In this document: positions 1,647 to 42,032 of the stretch, piece after piece
How the letters are laid out: the number at the start of each line of letters is the position of its first letter
How positions within the stretch are numbered: position 1 is the stretch's first letter
From: Telluria aromaticivorans
Lineage (GTDB): Bacteria; Pseudomonadota; Gammaproteobacteria; Burkholderiales; Burkholderiaceae_D
NCBI RefSeq assembly: GCF_013003915.1
Contig: NZ_JABAIV010000002.1
Coordinates: 1 to 64,000, forward strand
DNA: 64,000 nucleotides
Reading direction: 5' to 3'
Translations under genes and position numbers: made by a program
Notes under the pieces: generated by a model
Seen by the model: only the letters and a program-made list of their open reading frames with translations
Told to the model about the DNA's origin: nothing
Database searches by the model: none

Positions 1647-4313
1647 ATGACCACCGTTCCAGCTGAAATCAACGCCGCCGCCCTCAAGAACAGCACCGCG
1701 GAAAAGCTCACACCGATGATGCAGCAATACATGCGCATCAAAGCCGATTACCCGACCATGCTGGTGTTCTACCGCATGGGGGATTTCTACGAGCTGTTCC
1801 TCGAAGACGCCGAGAAGGCGTCACGCGTCCTAGGCATTACGCTGACCGCGCGCGGTTCCATGAACGGCAGCCCGATCAAGATGGCGGGCGTGCCCTTCCA
1901 CTCGCTCGACGGCTATCTGGCCAAGCTGGTCAAGCTGGGCGAATCCTGTGCGATCTGCGAGCAGATCGGCGACCCGGCGCTCGCCAAGGGCCCGGTCGAG
2001 CGCAAGGTGGTGCGCGTGGTCACCCCGGGCACCCTGACCGACAGCGACCTGCTGCCGGAAAAAGCCGATCGCCCGCTGCTGGCGATGTGCATGCACAGCC
2101 AGCGCAAGACCGTCACGGTCGGCATGGCCTGGCTGTCGCTCGCGAGCGGCAACCTGCGCCTGATGGAATTCTCGGGTGATGCGCGTGTGGTCGAAGCGCG
2201 CCTGGCGCATGAACTCGAACGCATCGCGCCGGCCGAGATCCTGCGCGCAGACTGCGCCGACATGTTCGAATCCGAACCGGTGGCGCACACCCAGCGCATG
2301 CCGGAATGGCATTTCGATGTATTGAAGGGCCACCAGTCGCTGCTCGACCAGCTGGGCGTGGCCACCCTTACCGGCTTCGGCGCGGACGGCCTGGGCGCCG
2401 CCTTTGGCGCGGCCGGCGCGCTGCTGCGCTATGCGCAGTCGACGCAAGGGCGCGGCCTGCAGCACGTGAACAGCCTGGCCTGCGAACTCGAAAACGAATA
2501 CATCGGCCTGGACGCTGCCACGCGCCGCAACCTGGAACTGACCGAGACCATCCGCGGCCAGGAAGCGCCGACCCTGTTCTCGCTGCTGGACGGCTGCCGC
2601 ACCGCGATGGGCTCGCGCCTGCTGCGCCACTGGCTGCACCATGCAAAGCGTAACCAACGGGTGGCGCGCTCGCGCCACGAAGCGATCGAGGCGCTGGCCC
2701 AGCTTGACGCTACCGGCTCGCTCTCAAGCACGCTGGCGAATGTGCCGGACATCGAACGCATCACCACGCGCATCGCCCTGCTGTCGGCGCGTCCGCGCGA
2801 TTTGTCTTGCCTGCGCGACGGCCTGAAGCAACTGCCGGCCCTGCGCCAGCAGGTCGCGCGCTGCTTCATCCCGGGCCCTACCAGCCTGCTGGGCGAGATC
2901 CACGAACTGCTGGCCACGCCGGAGGCCTGCGTGGACCTCCTGACGCGCGCGGTGATGGAAGAACCGAGCACGATGGTACGCGACGGCGGGGTGTTCGCGC
3001 GCGGCTTCGACGCCGAACTCGATGAGCTGCGCGCGCTGTCCGAGAACGCCGGCCAGTTCCTGGTCGACCTGGAAACGCGCGAGCGCGCCCGCACCGGCAT
3101 CAGCAACCTGCGCGTCGAATACAATCGGGTACACGGCTTCTACATCGAAGTCACCAACGGCCAGACCGACAAGGTGCCGGACGACTACCGCCGCCGCCAG
3201 ACGCTCAAGAACGCCGAGCGCTACATCACGCCGGAACTCAAGGCCTTCGAAGACAAGGCGCTGTCGGCGCAGGACCGCGCGCTGGCGCGCGAGAAGATGC
3301 TGTACGACCAGCTCCTGGCCGACCTGGCACCCTTCATCGGCTGCCTGCAGTCGATCGCGAATGGGCTGGCGCAGCTCGATACCCTGGTGGCGCTGACCAG
3401 CCACGCGGTGCGCAACAACTGGTGCGCGCCACAGCTGGTGGACGAGCCGTGCTTGAGCATCGTCGAAGGCCGCCACCCAGTGGTGGAAAACCAGATCGAG
3501 CGCTTCATCGCCAACGATTGCCGCTTGTCGAACGACCGCCGCCTGCTCCTGATCACCGGCCCGAACATGGGCGGTAAATCGACCTTCATGCGCCAGGTTG
3601 CCTTGATCACCCTACTCGCCTATGTCGGCAGCTATGTGCCGGCCACCAGTGCCACGATCGGCCCGATCGACCGCATTTTCACCCGCATCGGCGCCAGCGA
3701 CGACCTGGCCAACGGCCGTTCGACCTTCATGGTCGAGATGACCGAATCGGCCGCGATCCTCAATGGCGCTACCGAGAATTCCCTGGTGCTGATGGACGAA
3801 GTCGGCCGCGGCACATCGACCTTCGACGGCCTGGCGCTGGCGTGGGCGATCGCGCGCCACCTGATCGACACCAGCCGCAGCTTCACGCTGTTCGCGACCC
3901 ACTATTTCGAACTGACCCAGCTGCCGGAGACGCATCCGAGCGCGGTCAACGTGCACCTGTCGGCGGTCGAGCACAAGGACAACATCGTGTTCCTGCACGC
4001 GGTGCAGGACGGCCCGGCTTCGCAAAGCTATGGTTTGCAGGTGGCGCAGCTGGCCGGTGTCCCTCCTGCCGTGATCAAGGCCGCGCGCAAGCACCTGGCG
4101 CGCCTCGAATCGCAGGCGCTGGATGCGACACCGCAGCTCGACCTGTTCGCGATCGGGAGCGAGGCGCCGCATGATGAAGTCGATGAGGCTCCAGCGACCG
4201 GCGCAGCCTTCGACGACGGGCTGCGTGATGCCCTTGCCGCGATCGACCCGGATGCCCTCACGCCGCGCGAAGCGCTCGAACGGCTGTACGAGCTGAAACG
4301 GCTCGCCGCCTGA
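1647..4313 (+). CDS. mutS: DNA mismatch repair protein MutS
   Basis: MutS binds mismatches and small loops and recruits MutL in methyl-directed repair. The 888-residue length is usual. The mismatch-wedge motif F-Y-E is at residues 47-49 in RMGDFYELF. The ATPase has Walker A GPNMGGKS at 638-645 and Walker B followed by [12 protein letters not shown] near 717. The signature [11 protein letters not shown] follows. The start at MTTVPAEIN places the mismatch-binding domain at the usual distance from the N-terminus. The last codon overlaps the next gene by one base (TGATG), so the pair is probably co-translated. Confidence 0.97.
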
Positions 4314-5293
4314 TGCCGGCGCGCCGTCCCCTCCTCCTTGCTGTGCTGCTTGCGGCCGCCCTTGCCGCAGCGCCGGCCATGTCCGCCGGTGGGCGCGACA
4401 AGAAGAAGGAGAAGGAGAAGGAGAAGGACGAGCAGGCCCACCATTTCGCCGTGGTCGGCCACCGCGCCGCGATCGACGGCGAGGCGGCGCTGAAGGAAGT
4501 GCTGGATAATGCGAAGGACGAAGACCTTGCCTTCCTGGTCGTCACCGGCATCAAAGGTCCGCAGGAGCCCTGCGGCGACCGCGTATTCCAGAAACGGCGC
4601 GATTTGTTCGACAAGGCCAGCCGGCCGGTCATCGTCTCACTCACCGGCAGCGACTGGACCGGATGCCGCAACTCGCTGGGGCGCACCAATGCCATCGAGC
4701 GCCTGAACCGCCTGCGCGAACTGTTCTACGGCGAGCCGGAATCGCTCGGCAAGGAAAGGCTGCCGCTAACGCGCCTGTCGAGCAGCCCGCGCTTTCGCAG
4801 CTATGCCGAGAACACGCACTGGCAGGTCGACAAGGTGCTGTATGCCACCATCAACCTGCCGGCGGCGAACAACCACTACTTGCCGGCGGCGGGGCGCAAC
4901 AGCGAATACGAAGACCGGGCGGTGGCCAACCGCTTCTGGCTGAACCGCCTGTTCGCGATCGCGAAGCAGGACAAGGTGCATGCGGTGGTGCTGTTCTCGG
5001 AGGGGAACATGCTGCCGCTGCTGCAGCCGGCCAATGGCCTGCGCGCCCTGCTGCAGCGCGCACCCTCCGGGCATGACGGGTTTGCGGACACGCGCCGCCA
5101 GGTGCAGATGCATGCAGCGAAGTTCAAGGGACAGGTGCTGCTGGTCGACAGCGCCGGGCTGCCAAAGGATGCGAAGCCGGCGATCGAGTGGCGCGGCAAT
5201 GTGGGGCATTTGTCCGTCGGGGCGCACGCAGTGGAAGTGCGGGTGGCGGATGAGGGGAAGAATGTGTTCAGCCTTGGTGAAGGGCTGCGCTGA
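4313..5293 (+). CDS. Secreted protein of unknown function, coupled to mutS
   Basis: A 326-residue protein with a cleavable-looking signal peptide (residues 1-25, ending PAMSAGG), then a highly charged KKKEKEKEKDE stretch. The rest resembles secreted proteins sometimes labelled calcineurin-like phosphoesterases (FAVVGHRAAIDGE, VVTGIKG, VVLFSEGNM). The full set of metallophosphatase metal ligands is not evident, so I do not assign catalysis. It starts inside the mutS stop codon, which makes it the second gene of the mutS transcript. A repair link is not implied. Confidence 0.65.
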   Translation: MPARRPLLLAVLLAAALAAAPAMSAGGRDKKKEKEKEKDEQAHHFAVVGHRAAIDGEAALKEVLDNAKDEDLAFLVVTGIKGPQEPCGDRVFQKRRDLFDKASRPVIVSLTGSDWTGCRNSLGRTNAIERLNRLRELFYGEPESLGKERLPLTRLSSSPRFRSYAENTHWQVDKVLYATINLPAANNHYLPAAGRNSEYEDRAVANRFWLNRLFAIAKQDKVHAVVLFSEGNMLPLLQPANGLRALLQRAPSGHDGFADTRRQVQMHAAKFKGQVLLVDSAGLPKDAKPAIEWRGNVGHLSVGAHAVEVRVADEGKNVFSLGEGLR

Positions 5294-33770: not shown

Positions 33771-34145
33771 TCAGTCGGCCACCACGTGCCAGACGCCCTT
33801 CATCTTGTCGCCCTTGCGCTCGCCCGGCTTGGCATCGTTGGCGAACAGGTACAGCGGCTTGCCCTTGTAGGCCAGCTGTTTGCTGCCGTCGTCGCGCGTG
33901 ACGATCGAGTACGGTGATTCGATCCGCTCGACGGTGAGCGGAACCGGTGGCCACATCTTCGCGCACTGGGCATTGCAGCTGCTCTTGCCGGAGCCGGCGA
34001 TATCCTTGTCATAGGTATAGATCGTCATGCCCGCGCCGTTGACCAGGATGCCGTCGGCCACGTTGACGGGTTGTGCAATGGCGTCACCGGCGGCCAGCAG
34101 GAGCGCAGCGCCGAGGGCCGCAAGCAGGGGGTGAATCGCTTTCAT
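33771..34145 (-). CDS. Secreted COG4315-type repeat protein
   Basis: A 124-residue exported protein of the family of predicted lipoproteins with Y-x-[FWY]-x-x-D repeats. The signal peptide runs to about AAGDAIAQ. One repeat reads MTIYTYDKDIAGSGKSSCNAQC, with cysteines spaced as in the family (SSCNAQCAKMWPP). A second reads PLYLFANDAKPGE. GGGAG seven bases upstream supports the ATG at 34145 over one two codons earlier. Function unknown; the family is often near electron-transfer genes. Confidence 0.85.
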   Translation of the reverse strand: MKAIHPLLAALGAALLLAAGDAIAQPVNVADGILVNGAGMTIYTYDKDIAGSGKSSCNAQCAKMWPPVPLTVERIESPYSIVTRDDGSKQLAYKGKPLYLFANDAKPGERKGDKMKGVWHVVAD

Positions 34146-34277
34146 GGCCATCTCCCGGAAAATGGACTGCATGTGTCCAGTATAGGCCGGGGATCGGGCG
34201 TTTGCGGCGAAGATGCATCGCATGCAGCGGCAAGCTTTCCGCGCGTGAAAGGAAGCAAGCCCGGCGGTTTCAGGCGC

Positions 34278-34571
34278 TCAGCTTGCGACCATACGGTGAT
34301 CCCGCGCCCATTCACGCAATGCGTCGTTGAGACGGGTTTGCCAGCCCTCGCCCGTTCCCTTGAATGCCTCGACAAGGTCACGATCCAGGCGAATGTTGGT
34401 CGCCACTTTGGTTCCACTTCCGGCAGGCCGCCCGCGGCCACGAGTGGGCGTGACTGCTGCCCATTGCGCATCGGTGTAGGGGATCGCGTCGGGGTCCTGC
34501 ATGGCCGCTTTGGTGATGGCAGCGTCCTCTGCTTGAGTAGGGAGAACCGTTCCCGGTTTAAGTTTCGGCAT
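34278..34571 (-). CDS. brnA: BrnA-type antitoxin
   Basis: A 97-residue antitoxin that binds and neutralises BrnT and represses the operon. The C-terminal ribbon-helix-helix is recognisable (VATNIRLDRDLVEAFKGTGEGWQTRLNDALREW). The N-terminal half (TPTRGRGRPAGSG) would hold the toxin. It starts inside brnT with a 14-base overlap, so it is translated from the same messenger. The last residues, REWARDHRM, are typical of the family. Confidence 0.9.
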   Translation of the reverse strand: MPKLKPGTVLPTQAEDAAITKAAMQDPDAIPYTDAQWAAVTPTRGRGRPAGSGTKVATNIRLDRDLVEAFKGTGEGWQTRLNDALREWARDHRMVAS

Positions 34572-34824
34572 ATCGTTGCACCTCTCTCAAATTTGCTTTA
34601 CGCAGGCTGATAATGCGGCGTACTTCTTCACGGTCCACATACACCACGTAATAAAGACGGTCGCTGATATAGGCGATCGCGCACATGCGTGTTTCGCCGT
34701 AGTCGTAGCGCTCATCCTTCCACGTCAGTGCGTCCTCCCATTCGATCGCTGCGGCCGCCGCCAACGAAATACCGTGTTTCCCGGTATTGGCCTTGTCCTT
34801 CGTGGTATCGAATGCGATCTCCAT
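34558..34824 (-). CDS. brnT: BrnT-type ribonuclease toxin
   Basis: An 88-residue RelE-fold toxin that cleaves RNA. Family motifs: the opening MEIAFDTTKDKANTGKHGIS, WEDALTW, then RMCAIAYISDRLYYVVYV and RRIISLRKANLREVQRY with the catalytic Arg/Lys set. The ATG at 34824 matches the family start. It lies seven bases past a near-perfect -10 box, so the messenger is probably leaderless or nearly so. Confidence 0.9.
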   Translation of the reverse strand: MEIAFDTTKDKANTGKHGISLAAAAAIEWEDALTWKDERYDYGETRMCAIAYISDRLYYVVYVDREEVRRIISLRKANLREVQRYAET

Positions 34825-34830
34825 AACATA

Positions 34831-34875
34831 ATTGTAGATACATTAAATGGAGATGTCAAAATATTTGTATCTACA
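34831..34875 (-). promoter_or_regulatory. brnTA promoter and operator
   Basis: On the minus strand, TTGACA (34854-34859) and TACAAT (34831-34836) are separated by exactly 17 bp, a near-consensus sigma-70 promoter. The inverted pair TGTAGATAC (34833-34841) and GTATCTACA (34867-34875) overlaps the -10 and flanks the -35. It fits the site where BrnA would bind and shut the promoter. The distal arm overlaps the end of the gluconokinase gene. Confidence 0.8.
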
Positions 34876-35404
34876 AATATTCATTCTTCAGACTGGCTAC
34901 TACGTGCTCTACCAGCATGGACGGCGACTGGCGCAGGTCAAGCGTCATGCCGCCCTCGTCTCGCTGCAGTGGCTCGAGATCGCGCAATTGGCTGTCGAGC
35001 AGCGACTGCGGCATGAAGTGGCCCGCTCGCGCAGCCATCCGCTGCGCGATCAGCCCGCGCTCGCCGTGCAGATGGACGAAGCGGACAGCACCACTGTCGC
35101 CGCGTAAGATGTCGCGGTAAGCGCGCTTCAGGGCGGAGCATGCCAGCACTACCTGCTCGCCCGCGTCCCATGCGTGCTCGATCTCTGCACGCAGCGCCTG
35201 CAGCCATCCCTGCCGGTCCGCATCGCTCAGCGGCACACCGGCTGACATCTTCGCCACGTTTTCCATAGGATGAAAGCGGTCGCCCTCAATGAAACGAGCG
35301 CCCAGAGTTTGCGCCAGGCGCATGCCGACTTCGCTCTTGCCGCATCCGCTCACACCCATGACAACCCAAGCAATCGGCGCTTTCCTACGTGCATTCGTTT
35401 TCAT
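34871..35404 (-). CDS. gntK: Gluconokinase
   Basis: Phosphorylates gluconate to 6-phosphogluconate for the Entner-Doudoroff and pentose phosphate routes. The 177-residue protein has the P-loop GVSGCGKS, FIEGDRFHP, the lid region and the conserved CSALKRAYRDILR and HFMPQSLLDSQL motifs. I start at the ATG at 35404. An ATG six codons further up (35422) is possible, and neither has a strong ribosome site. The gene is on the same strand as brnTA, whose promoter is nested at its 3' end. Confidence 0.93.
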   Translation of the reverse strand: MKTNARRKAPIAWVVMGVSGCGKSEVGMRLAQTLGARFIEGDRFHPMENVAKMSAGVPLSDADRQGWLQALRAEIEHAWDAGEQVVLACSALKRAYRDILRGDSGAVRFVHLHGERGLIAQRMAARAGHFMPQSLLDSQLRDLEPLQRDEGGMTLDLRQSPSMLVEHVVASLKNEYL

Positions 35405-35440
35405 CAACGTATTCTCGCGCATCCTAGGCAGGCTTAGGGC

Positions 35441-35469
35441 GCATCAGCAGAAATCCCGGCTCTGCGAGC
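35441..35469. repeat. 29-bp direct repeat, left copy
   Basis: It begins GCATCAGCAGAAATCC and ends GGCTCTGCGAGC. It is identical to 38841-38869, where the same bases encode the last codons and stop of dnaE2. Here it has no gene attached. The two copies bound a 3.4-kb segment. Confidence 0.85.
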
Positions 35470-35538
35470 TTAAGAATGCCTAACAAAACCACTTACTTGC
35501 CCTGATAGAAACGACCTCGTACACTGCGGCAATCCGAC

Positions 35539-36714
35539 TGTCCGCTTTCGGCCCAGCCTGTGTAAAAATGTAAGGCCGCGTAAACGAAACCGCATCGGTA
35601 AACGTTGAGCCAGTATCTCATCACTACGGGTGCCACATGAAGCGCTTTATCGAAGGCGAAGATCGCGGACAGGGCACGCTGTTTCCGGAGCACCTGGACG
35701 ACTATGTGACCGAGAATTATCCGGTTCGTGTTGTCGATGTATTTGTCGAAGAGCTTGATCTTGCCAGCCTCGGATTCGAGCGCGTACATCCGGCAAAGAC
35801 GGGGCGACCGGCCTACCATCCCGCCGTGCTGCTCAAGCTCTACATTTACGGCTATCTCAACCGTATTCAATCGAGCCGGCGGCTGGAACGGGAAGCCCAG
35901 CGAAACGTCGAACTGATGTGGCTGACGGGTTGCCTGGCGCCGGACTTCAAGACGATAGCGAACTTCCGAAAAGATAAGGGCAAGGCGATCGGCAAGGTCT
36001 GCCGGCAGTTCGTCGTTCTGTTCCAGCAGCTGGATCTTTTCTCCGATGCAGTCGTCGCGATCGACGGAAGCAAATTCAAGGCCGTCAACAGCAGTGACCG
36101 CAACTTCACCGATGCGAAACTCAAGCGCCGGATGGCAGAGATCGAAGCGAATATCGGTCGCTACCTGGCGGAACTTGACACGGCTGACCGTCAGGAGCCA
36201 GCCACTTGGCGCTCAAGTTGCAAAGCCTGCCCACTCAAGGATAAGTGCACGCCGAGCTCGCAGCGGCGCGTGACCCGTTGGGAACATCAGGACGTGCTCG
36301 ACGACATGCAGGCGCGTCTTGAACAGGCGCCAGACGCCATGCGAATCCGGCGTTCGACTGTCGAGCATCCGTACGCGACGATCAAGGCGTGGATGGGAGC
36401 AACGCACTTCCTGACAAAAGGCCTGGAGCGTGTGAAAGCCGAGATGAGCCTGCACGTGCTCGCCTATAACTTCAGGCGCTTGATGGCGATTCTGGGCATT
36501 GAAAAGATGCTGGCAGCAATCCGGGCGTATGCCCGTTTTCTGACGCTGCATGCCCTGCTTGAAGCGTTCTCTGTGCTGACATTGATGAAACTGCCCAATT
36601 GGGACTACGCGGCCTGGAACGCTTCGTTGTTTTCCAGGATGAGCGTTGGCGCGTACAAATCGGCCGCCAGTCCTTCAATTTGAGTTTTTACACAGGCTGG
36701 GCCAAGAGCGGACG
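35539..36714 (+). mobile_element. IS1182-type element with internal deletion
   Basis: About 1.18 kb bounded by 30-bp inverted ends (35539-35568 and 36685-36714) that match at 27 of 30 positions; the inner part TTTTTACACAGGCTGGGCC is exact. Inside is one transposase gene that lacks its middle. No clear target duplication is visible at the ends. The ends remain good, so the element could still be moved by a full-length relative. Confidence 0.8.
35637..36683 (+). pseudogene. IS1182-family transposase missing its central catalytic part
   Basis: A 348-residue open frame; intact IS1182 transposases are about 450-500 residues. The DUF772 N-terminal part is complete (GRPAYHPAVLLKLYIYGYLN, LAPDFKTIANFRKD), with the first catalytic aspartate in VAIDGSKFKAVN. 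The C-terminal part is also complete, with the glutamate in STVEHPYATIKAWMG and LHVLAYNFRRLM. Between residue 187 (near RQEPAT) and CKACPLKDKC about 110 residues are missing, including the second catalytic aspartate (the DRGYF region). The deletion is in frame, so a protein may still be made, but it cannot carry out transposition. Confidence 0.85.
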
Positions 36715-36882
36715 TCCGCAGTTGTAGCGAGCTGCAGACGATGCAGCCAGCCACCGAAGTTTCTTTACGTGGCCGGTCGGCTAAGTCCCCAATCCCAAAG
36801 TATGATTGCCGACAGAGCACCTTGTAGCATGACACCTTGGATATGAGACCCGATTTATCCTGAAACTGGATCGCGAGGTGAT

Positions 36883-38478
36883 ATGGAAAAACGTCTTGTG
36901 TTCGCTGTTGCGGTTGTAGGTGTCGTCCTCGCGATCATCGTACCCCCATGGCTGGCCTGGAACGAAGCGCAGCGTCAGGCCTATCAGACCGAGAGCACAC
37001 TCGCGCTCGGGTATGCGAAAGACGTCCTTCGCCGACTTGATGAAACTGGAGGTCAGTCCCTCCAAGGCATTGAACGGCTGGAGCGCATCGGTTCGGGGCC
37101 TTGCTCGCCTGAGGCGCAGGCACTGATGCGGCAGATCGATCTGACGTCGACCTATATTCAGGCGATTGGACACATCAGTAACGGCACGCTGATTTGTTCG
37201 TCGATGGGCTATGCGCCTGTATCACTCGGGGCGCAAGCATTCCGATCGTCCACCGGAGTTATCCTTTATACAGCCATACCAATCGGCGACAGCATAATGA
37301 GTCGGCTCGTTGGTTTTCAGCGCGGTAAATTCGTAGCGTTGTTTCACCGCGACCTGCCGCTCGACACCTGGACCGCCGTGCCAGGCGTATCGCTAGGCGT
37401 TGTGCATCTGGATTTACCGGTTACGGGGGATCCAATTATCCACCGCGGACATGTAGACGGTCGTTGGCGGCTGCGGTTGGAGAGGCGGTTTGACACGACG
37501 TTTGTCGCCGACGGTTACCTTGTTGCCGTCGTGCGGTCACGGCGATTTCCAATTGTCGGCATTGCCGCGGTGCCGGAAATTCATTTAAGCCACCAGACAA
37601 TGAACCTGGCGAAGCGTCTGGTACCAGCGAGCATGTTGGCCGGACTGGCGTTGGCGGTTGCAATCGTATTGCTCGCAAGACGCCAGGTCTCGCTTGCGAA
37701 TTCGTTGAGGCAAGGCTTGCGCCACCACGAATTTTTTCTGGCTTACCAGCCGGTCGTTGAGCTGACGAGCGGTCGCTGGGTAGGCGTGGAGGCGCTGTTG
37801 CGCTGGCGCCGTCCTACTGGCGAACTGATCGGCCCCGACGTGTTCATTGCCGTTGCCGAACAAACCGGTACTATCAACAGGCTGACTGAGCGAGTGCTAG
37901 AACTTTTGCAACACGATCTGGGCGACTTTCTAGTGCATCACCCGGAATTCCATATTGCACTGAACCTCTCGGCGCACGATCTGACCTGCGATAACATTGT
38001 CAGAATGCTCGAAAGGCTGCTCATGGAGACGGGCGCAAAGCCCGCGAACTTGATCGTTGAAGTAACCGAGCGGGCGTTACTCGACTTAGCGTCCGCCGGG
38101 CCGGTGCTCGCAGCCTTGCGAGCACGGGGAATCGAAGTAGCAATCGACGATTTCGGCACTGGCTACTCGAGTTTGTCGTACCTTGAGTCGCTTGAACTGG
38201 ATTTCCTGAAGATCGACCGCTGCTTTATCGAGACAATTGGCACGCGGGCCCCGACCAGCCAAGTGGTACAACATATCATCGCGATAGCCCGTACCATGGG
38301 ATTGCGGATGGTCGCCGAGGGCGTAGAAACCGAAGCGCAGGCACGTTACCTTGCCGAGCATGGGGTGCAATATGCCCAAGGATGGCTTTTTGCGAAAGCC
38401 ATGTCCTTCAAGGAGCTTGTAAGCGCTTTAAACGAGCACGGGTCGACGGTGAACGTGACCGCAACCAATGACCGCTAG
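36883..38478 (+). CDS. CSS-motif EAL-domain cyclic-di-GMP phosphodiesterase
   Basis: A 531-residue membrane phosphodiesterase of the PdeC/YjcC type. A transmembrane helix (7-25) and a second (about 245-265) bracket a periplasmic CSS domain with C74 and the CSS triplet at 105-107. DsbA/DsbB-made disulfides control such proteins. The EAL domain shows EALLRWRR, LNLSAHDL, EVTERALL, the DDFGTGYSS loop, LKIDRCFI and AEGVETEAQ, so all usual metal and catalytic residues are present. GAGGTG precedes the ATG. The gene is visibly less GC-rich than its neighbours and lies in the segment bounded by the 29-bp repeats, both signs of acquisition. Confidence 0.92.
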   Translation: MEKRLVFAVAVVGVVLAIIVPPWLAWNEAQRQAYQTESTLALGYAKDVLRRLDETGGQSLQGIERLERIGSGPCSPEAQALMRQIDLTSTYIQAIGHISNGTLICSSMGYAPVSLGAQAFRSSTGVILYTAIPIGDSIMSRLVGFQRGKFVALFHRDLPLDTWTAVPGVSLGVVHLDLPVTGDPIIHRGHVDGRWRLRLERRFDTTFVADGYLVAVVRSRRFPIVGIAAVPEIHLSHQTMNLAKRLVPASMLAGLALAVAIVLLARRQVSLANSLRQGLRHHEFFLAYQPVVELTSGRWVGVEALLRWRRPTGELIGPDVFIAVAEQTGTINRLTERVLELLQHDLGDFLVHHPEFHIALNLSAHDLTCDNIVRMLERLLMETGAKPANLIVEVTERALLDLASAGPVLAALRARGIEVAIDDFGTGYSSLSYLESLELDFLKIDRCFIETIGTRAPTSQVVQHIIAIARTMGLRMVAEGVETEAQARYLAEHGVQYAQGWLFAKAMSFKELVSALNEHGSTVNVTATNDR

Positions 38479-38840
38479 CGGCAGTTTGGTGTCGATGCAA
38501 ACGGCGGATTCACAAACTCCAGATGGTGAGAAGGTAGGTCAGGTCAAACGTTCAGCGACGACCTCTACCAGCGATCAACAAGTAAGAGATAACCCGGCGT
38601 TAGGAGAAGGTCTGCAATGGGGTCGAGAGCTGTCGTGCACTGGACGGCAGCAACCGGCCCATCAGTGGACGTACACAGTCTTAGTCCACGCCTGAAGATT
38701 GGCGGCCGCGTTCGCAGACAGACTGATGCCATGGCGCGAGCACTTCTCCCAGAATACCTTTGGGCGCTTATAGCAATTTATCTCGCGACGCGCTGGCGAC
38801 TATTGAAATCGGTATGCCCGGTGAGTATTACCGCGCCGAA
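38479..38840. other. Right end of the inserted segment, no gene
   Basis: I see no supported gene between the EAL gene and the right 29-bp repeat. The stretch is less GC-rich than the flanking chromosome and contains several short open frames without ribosome sites or recognisable products. The tail of dnaE2 begins at its right border. Confidence 0.4.
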
Positions 38841-38869
38841 GCATCAGCAGAAATCCCGGCTCTGCGAGC
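38841..38869. repeat. 29-bp direct repeat, right copy (3' end of dnaE2)
   Basis: Identical to 35441-35469 and in the same orientation. On the minus strand it encodes the C-terminal RSQSRDFC of DnaE2 and its TGA stop. The flanking bases on each side differ between the two copies, so the match is exactly 29 bp. Confidence 0.85.
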
Positions 38870-41800
38870 GCAACTTCCCCAGCAGATGCGACATGTCCAC
38901 CAGCCGCTTGGCCACCAGGTGGCGCACCTCGCCCTGCTTCTGCCAGATCCCGTAGACGCCCAACAAGGGCGCGTTGAGCACCTCGCGCCGCTGCTGCTCG
39001 ACCAGGGTCGGCCAGATGATGACGTTGATGTTCCCGGTTTCGTCTTCCAAGGTCATGAACAGCACGCCTTTCGCCGTGCCGGGGCGCTGGCGCACCGTGA
39101 CCAGGCCGCAGGCGCGCGCCAGCTGGCCGTCCTGGAAATCCATCAACGTGGAAGCCGGCAGGAAGCGTTTCGCCAGCAGCTGCTCGCGCAGCAGCGCCAG
39201 TGGGTGGCGGCCCAGGGTCAGCCCTTGCGCGCGGTAGTCGCCGACGATCTCGTCGGCTTCGGACGGTGCGGCCAGCACCGGTACTTCTTCCAGCAGCGTA
39301 GTCGGGCGCAGCAAGTCCTTGTCCGGCACCGCGCCCACCGCCTGCCACAAGGCTTCGCGCCGGTGCCCGGCCAGCGACTGCAGCGCATTGGCGCCGGCCA
39401 GCACCTGCAGGTCGCCCCGGTCGAGGTTGGCGCGGCGCGCCAGGTCGGCCACGCTCTCGAAAGGCCGGATCGCGCGCGCATCCTCGATGCGGTTGGCCAC
39501 CTCGTGTTTCAGGCCGCGCTGAAGCGAGAGCCCGAGGCGCACCGCCGGCTGGCGCGAACGGTCGAGCGGATCGAATTCTTCCAGTACCGAATCCCAGCCG
39601 CTGATGGCGACATCCGCCGGGCGCACCTCGATGCCGTGGCGGCGCGCGTCCTGTACCAGCTGCGAGGGGCTGTAGAAACCCATCGGCTGGCTGTTGAGCA
39701 GCGCGCACAGGAAGGCCGCCGGCTCGTGGCATTTGAGCCAGGAGCTTGCATAGGCCAGCAGTGCGAAGCTGGCCGCGTGCGATTCGGGAAAGCCGTATTC
39801 GCCGAAGCCCTGGATCTGGCTGAAGATCGCCTCGGCGAATTCGAGCGTGTAGCCGCGCTCGAGCATGCCGTGCACGATGCGTTCGTAATACTGTTCCAGC
39901 CCGCCCTTGCGCTTCCAGGCCGCCATCGCACGGCGCAGCTGGTCGGCCTCGCCCGGCGTGAAGCCGGCGCCTAAAATCGCCACCTGCATCACCTGCTCCT
40001 GGAAAATCGGCACGCCCAGCGTGCGCTCGAGCGCCACTTTCATCTCGGAGCTGGGGTAGACCACCTTTTCGAAGCCCTGGCGCCGCCGCAAATAGGGATG
40101 GACCATGCCGCCCTGGATCGGGCCGGGGCGCACCACCGCCACTTCGATCACGAGGTCGTAGAAGCGGCGCGGGCGCATGCGCGGCAGCATGCTCATTTGC
40201 GCGCGCGACTCGATCTGGAATACGCCCACGGTGTCGGCCGCGCAGATCATGTCGTAGGTCGCGACGTCGTCGGGCGGGATGTCCTGCATCTCGAACAAAT
40301 TGCCGTGACGCTGTCCGACCAGCTCCAGCCCGCGCCGCAGCATCGACAGCATGCCCAGCGCCAGCACGTCGACCTTCATCAGGCCGAGTTCTTCGAGGTC
40401 GTTCTTGTCCCACTGGATCACACTGCGGTCCGCCATGGTGGCGTTCTCGATCGGCACCAGGCGCGAGAGCTTGCCGCGCGCGATGACGAAACCGCCCGGG
40501 TGCTGCGACAGGTGGCGCGGGAAGTTCAGCAGCTTGTCGGCAAGCGTGGCCCACTGCTGCGCCAGCCGCGACTCCGGATCGAGTCCCGCTTCCGCCAGGC
40601 GCGCCAGCAAATCGGCACGGCTGTCGAACCAGTGATGGGTCTTGGCCACCTTCTCGACGATGGCCAGGTCGATGCCGAGCGCGCGGCCGCTGTCGCGCAG
40701 CGCGCTCTTGGGACGGTAGCTGATCACGACCGCCGCCAGCGCGGCCCGGTCGCGCCCATATTTGTTGTAGATGTACTGGATGACTTCTTCGCGGCGCTGG
40801 TGCTCGAAGTCGACGTCGATGTCGGGCGGCTCGTTGCGCTCCTTGGAGATGAAGCGCTCGAACAGCAGGCTGGCGCGGGCCGGGTCGACTTCGGTGATGC
40901 CGAGGCAGTAGCACACCGCCGAGTTGGCGGCCGAGCCGCGTCCCTGGCACAGGATGTGCTGCGAGCGCGCGAAGCGCACGATGTCGTAGACGGTCAGGAA
41001 GTAGTGCTCGTAGCGCATCTCGGCAATCAAGGTGAGCTCATGCTCGATCTGGGCCTGCACCTTGGCCGGGATGCCGTCGCGGAAGCGCCGGTGCGCGCCG
41101 ATATAGGTTTCCTCGCGCAGGAAGCTGCTGGCGTTGTGGCCGGGCGGGACCACTTCGTCCGGGTATTCGTAGCGCAGCTCGTCCAACGAGAAGGTGCACA
41201 GGCGCGCGATGCGCACCGTCTCGTCCAGCGCCTCGCGCGAATAGATGTTGGACAGGCGCAGGCGTGAACGCAGGTGCTGCTCGGCGTTCTGCGCCAGGCC
41301 GTAGCCGCATTCGGCCACCGGCTTTTTCAGGCGGGTGGCGGTGAGCGTGTCCTGCAGGGGCTTGCGCGAACGGACGTGCATCACCACGTGGCCGAGCGCC
41401 GTGATCGGCAAGCCGTGCTGCCAGCCCACCTCCTCCACCGTCATGCGGTGCGCCTCGTCGAAAGCGCGGTGCAGCAGCGTGAGACCCAGCCAGGCGCGTC
41501 CCGGGAAGGTGGTCGCCATCCAGGCGGCCTGCGCGTGCAGGCGGTCGACGTCTTCCGCTTCGTGCCCCGGATACTGCGGCAGCAGGATCGCCAGGCAGTC
41601 GGGCAGGTGCTTCAGGTGCTTGTACGCGGGCGCGGGATCGGCCAGGTCGCCCGGCGTGAGGAAGTAAGTCCCCTTCTCGCTGCGCGTGCGGCCCAGCGTA
41701 ATGAATTCCGCCAGGTTGCCATAGCCGTTGCGGTTCTTGGCCAGCACCACCAGCGACAGCGCCGGGCTGCCGTCCGCGTTCGTGAGGTGGAAGTGGGCGC

Positions 41801-42032
41801 CGATCACCAAGGGAAGGCCGGCCTTCTTCGCCTCGGCATGGGCCCGTACCACGCCGGCCAGCGAGCATTCGTCGGTCAGCGCCAGTGCAAAATAATCGAG
41901 CTTCACCGCCCGCGCCACCAGTTCTTCCGCATGCGAGGCCCCCTCCAGGAAGGAGAAGTTCGACAGGCAGAACAGCTCTGCATAGGTTGGCAAAGCCTGG
42001 GGTGGCGGTGAAAATAAATCAGTCATCGGCAT
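38844..42032 (-). CDS. dnaE2: Error-prone DNA polymerase DnaE2 (ImuC)
   Basis: DnaE2 is the SOS-induced C-family polymerase that works with ImuA/ImuB in damage tolerance and mutagenesis. The 1062-residue protein starts MPMTDLFSPP (a second ATG is two codons in). PHP domain: AELFCLSNFSFLEGASHAEEL. Polymerase core: GRGSAANSAVCYCLGIT, the catalytic aspartates in PPDIDVDFEHQRREE, and MKVDVLALGML. The end is GKLRSQSRDFC. A LexA box lies 43 bp upstream. Unlike the usual imuA-imuB-dnaE2 cluster it stands alone, with phzF divergent and the inserted segment at its 3' end. Confidence 0.95.
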   Translation of the reverse strand: MPMTDLFSPPPQALPTYAELFCLSNFSFLEGASHAEELVARAVKLDYFALALTDECSLAGVVRAHAEAKKAGLPLVIGAHFHLTNADGSPALSLVVLAKNRNGYGNLAEFITLGRTRSEKGTYFLTPGDLADPAPAYKHLKHLPDCLAILLPQYPGHEAEDVDRLHAQAAWMATTFPGRAWLGLTLLHRAFDEAHRMTVEEVGWQHGLPITALGHVVMHVRSRKPLQDTLTATRLKKPVAECGYGLAQNAEQHLRSRLRLSNIYSREALDETVRIARLCTFSLDELRYEYPDEVVPPGHNASSFLREETYIGAHRRFRDGIPAKVQAQIEHELTLIAEMRYEHYFLTVYDIVRFARSQHILCQGRGSAANSAVCYCLGITEVDPARASLLFERFISKERNEPPDIDVDFEHQRREEVIQYIYNKYGRDRAALAAVVISYRPKSALRDSGRALGIDLAIVEKVAKTHHWFDSRADLLARLAEAGLDPESRLAQQWATLADKLLNFPRHLSQHPGGFVIARGKLSRLVPIENATMADRSVIQWDKNDLEELGLMKVDVLALGMLSMLRRGLELVGQRHGNLFEMQDIPPDDVATYDMICAADTVGVFQIESRAQMSMLPRMRPRRFYDLVIEVAVVRPGPIQGGMVHPYLRRRQGFEKVVYPSSEMKVALERTLGVPIFQEQVMQVAILGAGFTPGEADQLRRAMAAWKRKGGLEQYYERIVHGMLERGYTLEFAEAIFSQIQGFGEYGFPESHAASFALLAYASSWLKCHEPAAFLCALLNSQPMGFYSPSQLVQDARRHGIEVRPADVAISGWDSVLEEFDPLDRSRQPAVRLGLSLQRGLKHEVANRIEDARAIRPFESVADLARRANLDRGDLQVLAGANALQSLAGHRREALWQAVGAVPDKDLLRPTTLLEEVPVLAAPSEADEIVGDYRAQGLTLGRHPLALLREQLLAKRFLPASTLMDFQDGQLARACGLVTVRQRPGTAKGVLFMTLEDETGNINVIIWPTLVEQQRREVLNAPLLGVYGIWQKQGEVRHLVAKRLVDMSHLLGKLRSQSRDFC

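Follow-up and report, generated by a model that had tools for sequence, protein, structure and literature searches.

The 3.4-kb segment lying between the gluconokinase gene and the 3' end of dnaE2 in Telluria aromaticivorans is best explained as a broken IS5-family insertion sequence that carried a gene—a transporter IS—with a proposed subsequent rebuilding of the gene end, a reading to which we assign a probability of about 0.75. Within the 64,000-nucleotide stretch of DNA analyzed here (the window), the sequence of the segment makes it highly probable that it is a broken gene-carrying IS5-family transposon whose cargo encodes a CSS-motif EAL cyclic-di-GMP phosphodiesterase. This identity is supported by a left end and a transposase start that were detected independently in the window and that belong to a single element in relatives; as the window lacks the right end and the greater part of the transposase, membership is judged from one end and about 20 codons. 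The features of the segment and its borders are as follows:

34871..35422, minus strand: gluconokinase, above the NCBIfam cut-off for GntK/IdnK-type gluconokinase
35441..35469, plus strand: left copy of the 29-bp repeat, read as the old dnaE2 tail in its native place beside gluconokinase (alignment to relative G007)
35471..35472, plus strand: TA beside the transposon left end, the target, of which only the left side remains (comparison with relatives)
35473..35553, plus strand: IS5-family transposon left end, comprising its terminal repeat and a conserved subterminal stretch (alignment of 16 ends, profile match), cut by the IS1182-type element
35554..36699, plus strand: deleted IS1182-family element (inverted repeats, NCBIfam IS1182, GGCC on both sides), transposase frame at 35637-36683
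36883..38478, plus strand: CSS-motif EAL protein, the cargo, an open frame of 531 aa with Pfam PF12792 and PF00563
38664..38789, plus strand: IS5-family transposase leader and first codons (from 38731), where homology stops
38790..38840, plus strand: 51 bases that link the broken transposase to the right repeat, with no match outside the own genome among the loci compared
38841..38869, plus strand: right copy of the 29-bp repeat, the end of the present dnaE2
38844..42026, minus strand: dnaE2, encoding a protein above the NCBIfam cut-off for error-prone DNA polymerase

The left edge of the segment (35462-35545) matches 25 of 62 genomes, the own genome included, in a DNA search, and the stretch 38664-38789 recurs in many genomes of the genus among the matches listed. 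A left-end profile matches the window at 35471-35552 with an E value of 7.5e-20; the 16 sequences of the profile include that of the window, where the match was first found without the profile, by DNA search. On the other side, what is left of the transposase is its leader and about 20 codons. Continuation of the transposase to 38840 is ruled out by comparison with 15 copies, which show 40-49 identical positions of the first 60, then 14-19 of 50. No transposon right end is present in the window at E values up to 0.01, which makes the window copy a relic rather than a working member, and the unit is now immobile. The EAL gene occupies the usual cargo position of the relatives, after the left end and ahead of the first transposase codons. 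The left-end core GCCTAAC may resemble an integron attC box. A TTGCCC-17-TACACT arrangement in the left end appears conserved by eye and was considered as a promoter, and a consensus scan returned no promoter-like site.

The IS1182-family element is inserted in a palindrome of the transposon left end, with GGCC on both flanks, and it landed there later than the transposon; the EAL gene is now cut off from the left end by it. It is about 540 bases shorter than a plasmid copy (904 bases of the query correspond to 1442 of the plasmid record). The EAL protein retains an intact open frame and the expected motifs, and is probably a cyclic-di-GMP phosphodiesterase. Relatives of this protein at E values up to 1e-60 occur in 29 of the 62 genomes, including the own genome, and those elsewhere in the genus never adjoin a left end among the loci compared, which counts against the transposon reading. 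The preliminary description had named a deleted IS and a cyclic-di-GMP phosphodiesterase gene of lower GC as the contents of the segment, and both are borne out: the former is the IS1182-family element with its internal deletion, the latter the CSS-EAL gene, and the GC content of 35470-38840 is 56.5%, compared to 64.6% in the window and 67.0% in dnaE2.

Related bacteria from soil carry transposons of similar build. Complete relatives in the genus are ordered as left end, cargo, leader (about 67 bases), 267-aa DDE transposase and right end GGTTTTGTTAGGCGTTC. The left end combines the terminal repeat GARCGCCTAACAAAACC with about 60 more conserved bases, and the transposase matches Pfam PF13340/PF01609 and NCBIfam IS5. 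At E values up to 1e-60 the transposase is found in 20 of the 62 genomes (29 matches), and the own genome has no match at this threshold. Both ends stand in order for 12 of these 29 matches in the stretch examined. The other 17 show no ordered left end there, a point against the reading, although some of them lie at contig ends, and the left-end model places another left end about 1.5 kb upstream of the second G059 transposase copy, beyond that stretch. The left-end model matches 60 of 62 genus genomes at E values up to 0.001, with seven matches in the own genome, but many of the listed matches start at model position 15 or later and lack the terminal repeat; some of the matches are not element ends. 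Phages and plasmids gave no match to the left end, the IS5-type transposase region is present on a Massilia putida plasmid, and no transposase relatives were found in viral contigs.

Fifteen units were listed, with lengths including cargo of about 1.3 to 6.2 kb, and 12 of them can be read at both ends; the excluded units are G013far, whose right end is also that of G013near, G045long, in which the left end is cut, and G015na, which has no TA at its right end. TA flanks both sides in all 12 readable units. An equal TWA triplet is present on both sides in 10 of them, the exceptions being G026 and G060, which is weak evidence because TWA has two forms only. The 3.7-kb unit of G059 provides stronger evidence of mobility than these triplets: its joined flanks give a single uninterrupted match in each of five sister genomes (G060, G019, G042, G010, G039) and a match in two parts in G059 itself. 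In G060 and G019 the junction of this empty site can be placed to a few bases; it is less clear in the remaining three genomes.

The dnaE2 gene is present in all 62 genus genomes searched. Its downstream regions were collected from 40 of the 61 genus relatives and from 80 named loci, 120 regions whose species overlap between the two sets; eight of these hold less than 5 kb past dnaE2, one of them 45 bases. None of the 120 repeats the dnaE2 end downstream, allowing up to six mismatches. The gluconokinase gene gntK falls within the fetched stretch in 22 of the 40 genus regions. In the relative G007 the dnaE2 end is single and gntK starts 19 bp past the dnaE2 stop; the left copy and the gntK leader of the window align to this junction with no large gap. 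The left copy thus occupies its native place, and 3,400 bp have been added in the window. Matches to the repeat cover 28 of 29 bases in G047 and 27 of 29 in G007, with one copy in each. In five other relatives inspected closely, the interval between dnaE2 and gntK contains varied frames. A BrnT/BrnA toxin-antitoxin pair lies on the other side of gluconokinase, at 34278-34824, where a patch of low GC separates gluconokinase from the gene at 33771-34223. In G007 only about 29 bp lie between the counterparts of these two genes, and the 40 genus regions contain no match to BrnT or BrnA; the patch thus appears to be a second insertion adjoining the 3.4-kb segment.

The 29 bases at 35441-35469 are identical to those at 38841-38869 and share their orientation. 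The right copy, read on the minus strand, encodes the C-terminal residues of the dnaE2 product (...LRSQSRDFC) with the stop codon, and extends for three further bases. Only these two copies are present in the window at up to three mismatches, with none in 100 shuffles, and they are the only ones in the own genome (5,232,923 bases, 24 contigs), exact or at up to three mismatches. The repeat stops 1 bp from the TA that flanks the transposon left end. This proximity is poorly explained by chance, suggesting that the repeat and the transposon end are probably linked. A long target duplication made by the IS5-type transposase is rejected, as the relatives show TA. In addition, no direct repeat of at least 12 bases lies beside the left end in 15 of the 18 left ends tested (the window and 17 others); besides the window, the exceptions are L218, where the 22 repeated bases belong to the end of an adjacent element, and L222, with a 12-base match at a distance of 47 bases. 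Much of the preliminary description holds at this junction. It had reported the exact repeat with its dnaE2 codons and stop and had placed the segment as an insertion between gluconokinase and dnaE2, which the G007 junction supports; the empty site that it proposed to look for, with one copy of the repeat joining the two genes, is found in that relative (27 of 29 bases, single copy). Neither of the outcomes that it set against itself, relatives lacking the segment but having two copies or segment genes at this site in every relative, was seen in the regions read.

A tentative order of events, somewhat short of an even chance by our estimate, begins with the transposon jumping into the tail of dnaE2 in the way normal for such elements. 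Subsequently, dnaE2 DNA from a very close relative would have recombined with the site and restored the gene end, joining it to the broken transposase via the 51 bases with loss of the transposon right end, and the old dnaE2 tail would have been left behind as the left 29-bp copy. The nearest relative does not shift along dnaE2 in a comparison with 13 relatives, so the donor would have to be nearly the same strain, and a dnaE2 end acquired from another species is not supported. This constancy goes against the proposed order, as does the old tail, which would read TA-A where dnaE2 has TG-C, as no compared dnaE2 end does. Alternatively, a staggered break at the end of dnaE2 could have taken up a piece of the transposon, or such a piece could have been joined illegitimately during uptake of foreign DNA. 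Fill-in of the break would have doubled 29 bp of the target without the need of a recombinase. Capture agrees with a segment that is broken inside the transposase on one side and lacks a right end, with the 51 junction bases that have no match outside the own genome among the loci compared, and with the identity of the repeat copies, given a divergence of 10.0 to 13.7% along dnaE2 between the window and the 13 relatives; but it requires that the other break fall by chance a few bases from the transposon end. Taken singly we consider capture unlikely, although it accounts for the data nearly as well as transposition followed by recombination.

The earlier interpretation took the segment for a non-autonomous island at the 3' end of dnaE2, with a tyrosine integrase acting in trans or since lost, the 29-bp copies as attL and attR, and the transposon pieces as passengers. 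Genomic islands at gene 3' ends, for example at trmE and dusA, do show, in the available parts of the sources, a direct repeat, a rebuilt gene end and a relative with an empty site, as the exact direct repeat, the rebuilt dnaE2 end and G007 do here. They differ from the segment in what it lacks or adds: no integrase, no second island at the site in the relatives read, and a left edge that is a transposon terminus. In favor of an island, the own genome contains eight tyrosine-recombinase matches (PF00589) elsewhere. None of them lies in the segment, where Pfam analysis of the frames also detects no integrase, as the preliminary description had stated. Integrase-like frames occur in two of the 120 downstream regions, at 0.2 kb (L067) and 7.7 kb (L080) from dnaE2; the search used eight queries and, repeated with the matched stretches, returned the same two regions. 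The former, from Cupriavidus basilensis, is a 232-aa tyrosine recombinase-like frame 187 bp past the dnaE2 stop, a small recombinase in a position that favors an island, but the dnaE2 end there is single-copy in its own genome. No region among the 120 repeats the dnaE2 end, viral contigs contain no exact copy of the repeat's 22-base core, and an integrase does not predict a repeat that stops 1 bp from a transposon target. In the available part of PMC7466150 the mention of dnaE2 concerns the cargo of an ICE rather than an insertion site. The positive evidence for an integrase consists solely of the repeat and the empty site; its involvement is possible, but we regard the island interpretation as quite improbable. 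Of the earlier claims, integrase-mediated integration at the gene end is the one not borne out, whereas the description of the segment as a non-autonomous element or relic, unable to move by itself, stands. A direct repeat at a gene end together with an empty site is insufficient for calling an integrase island.

The broken transposon favored here has recognizable kin among known systems. Insertion sequences with passenger genes are termed transporter IS (tIS) in the available parts of PMC7986276 and PMC9330008, and the units in the genus share with them, as described there, a single transposase, terminal inverted repeats and passenger genes inside the ends. They differ in that the window copy is broken, and the genus family is of IS5 type; its conserved left end measures about 82 bp, its cargo is highly varied, and some of its units have no transposase. 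The IS427 group of the IS5 family is similar in its IS5-type transposase, short terminal repeats and, in most listed members, 2-bp target (PMC3281130, available part); judged on these features alone, the likeness ends at size, the listed members being 832 to 865 bp (PMC3281130) and the genus units about 1.3 to 6.2 kb with cargo. In the literature searched on cargo-carrying IS5-family elements, on islands at dnaE2 and on illegitimate recombination, with most subscription journals and ISfinder outside its scope, no description of these Massilia elements was found. We lean slightly towards the view that Massilia-like genomes harbor a large family of IS5-type cargo transposons by which single genes or short operons with unrelated functions may travel as cassettes, in many cases in trans, with the segment as a decayed member. 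If so, one IS5-type end sequence that frames many different cargo genes, in some units with no transposase, would offer a straightforward way to mobilize ordinary genes, and the family would be a good model of IS becoming transposons. Passenger-carrying IS are already known, and the genus-wide family is of more interest than the relic in the window.

Forty-four frames are listed between the ends of the relatives' units, 35 of them of at least 80 aa, and not all are genes. A Pfam scan of 16 of these frames and one further frame identified a SpoIIAA-like protein (G012), diaminopimelate epimerase (G024), a methyltransferase (G046), Amj (G047), a PF00144 serine hydrolase with an 8xMP protein (G013), and a sulfate permease with a Na+/H+ antiporter (G060). 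The cargo of G038 comprises nitronate monooxygenase, on the opposite strand, with LysR, MFS and tautomerase proteins. Three scanned frames, from G040, G047 and G026, have no Pfam family. The G045long and G059 units seem, by eye, to contain other IS genes as well. Two units have both ends and no transposase: L216 of G045 (3142-4437), with a DUF2806 protein, and L222 of G015 (2840-4305), with an S41 peptidase; these are possibly cassettes moved in trans.

Several units depart from the simple arrangement. An identical 105-aa frame occurs twice in one unit of G047 (L265, 6467-10544), flanking the cargo at both ends. Two left ends stand in a row before one transposase in L261 (G013) and back to back in L218 (G038), and two transposases meet end to end in L275 (G023). 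Outside these units, protein P0136 from Janthinobacterium aestuarii is an 81% relative of the transposase and represents a cluster of 117 sequences, for which a single contig (6.36 Mb) is listed; its element is perhaps present in high copy.
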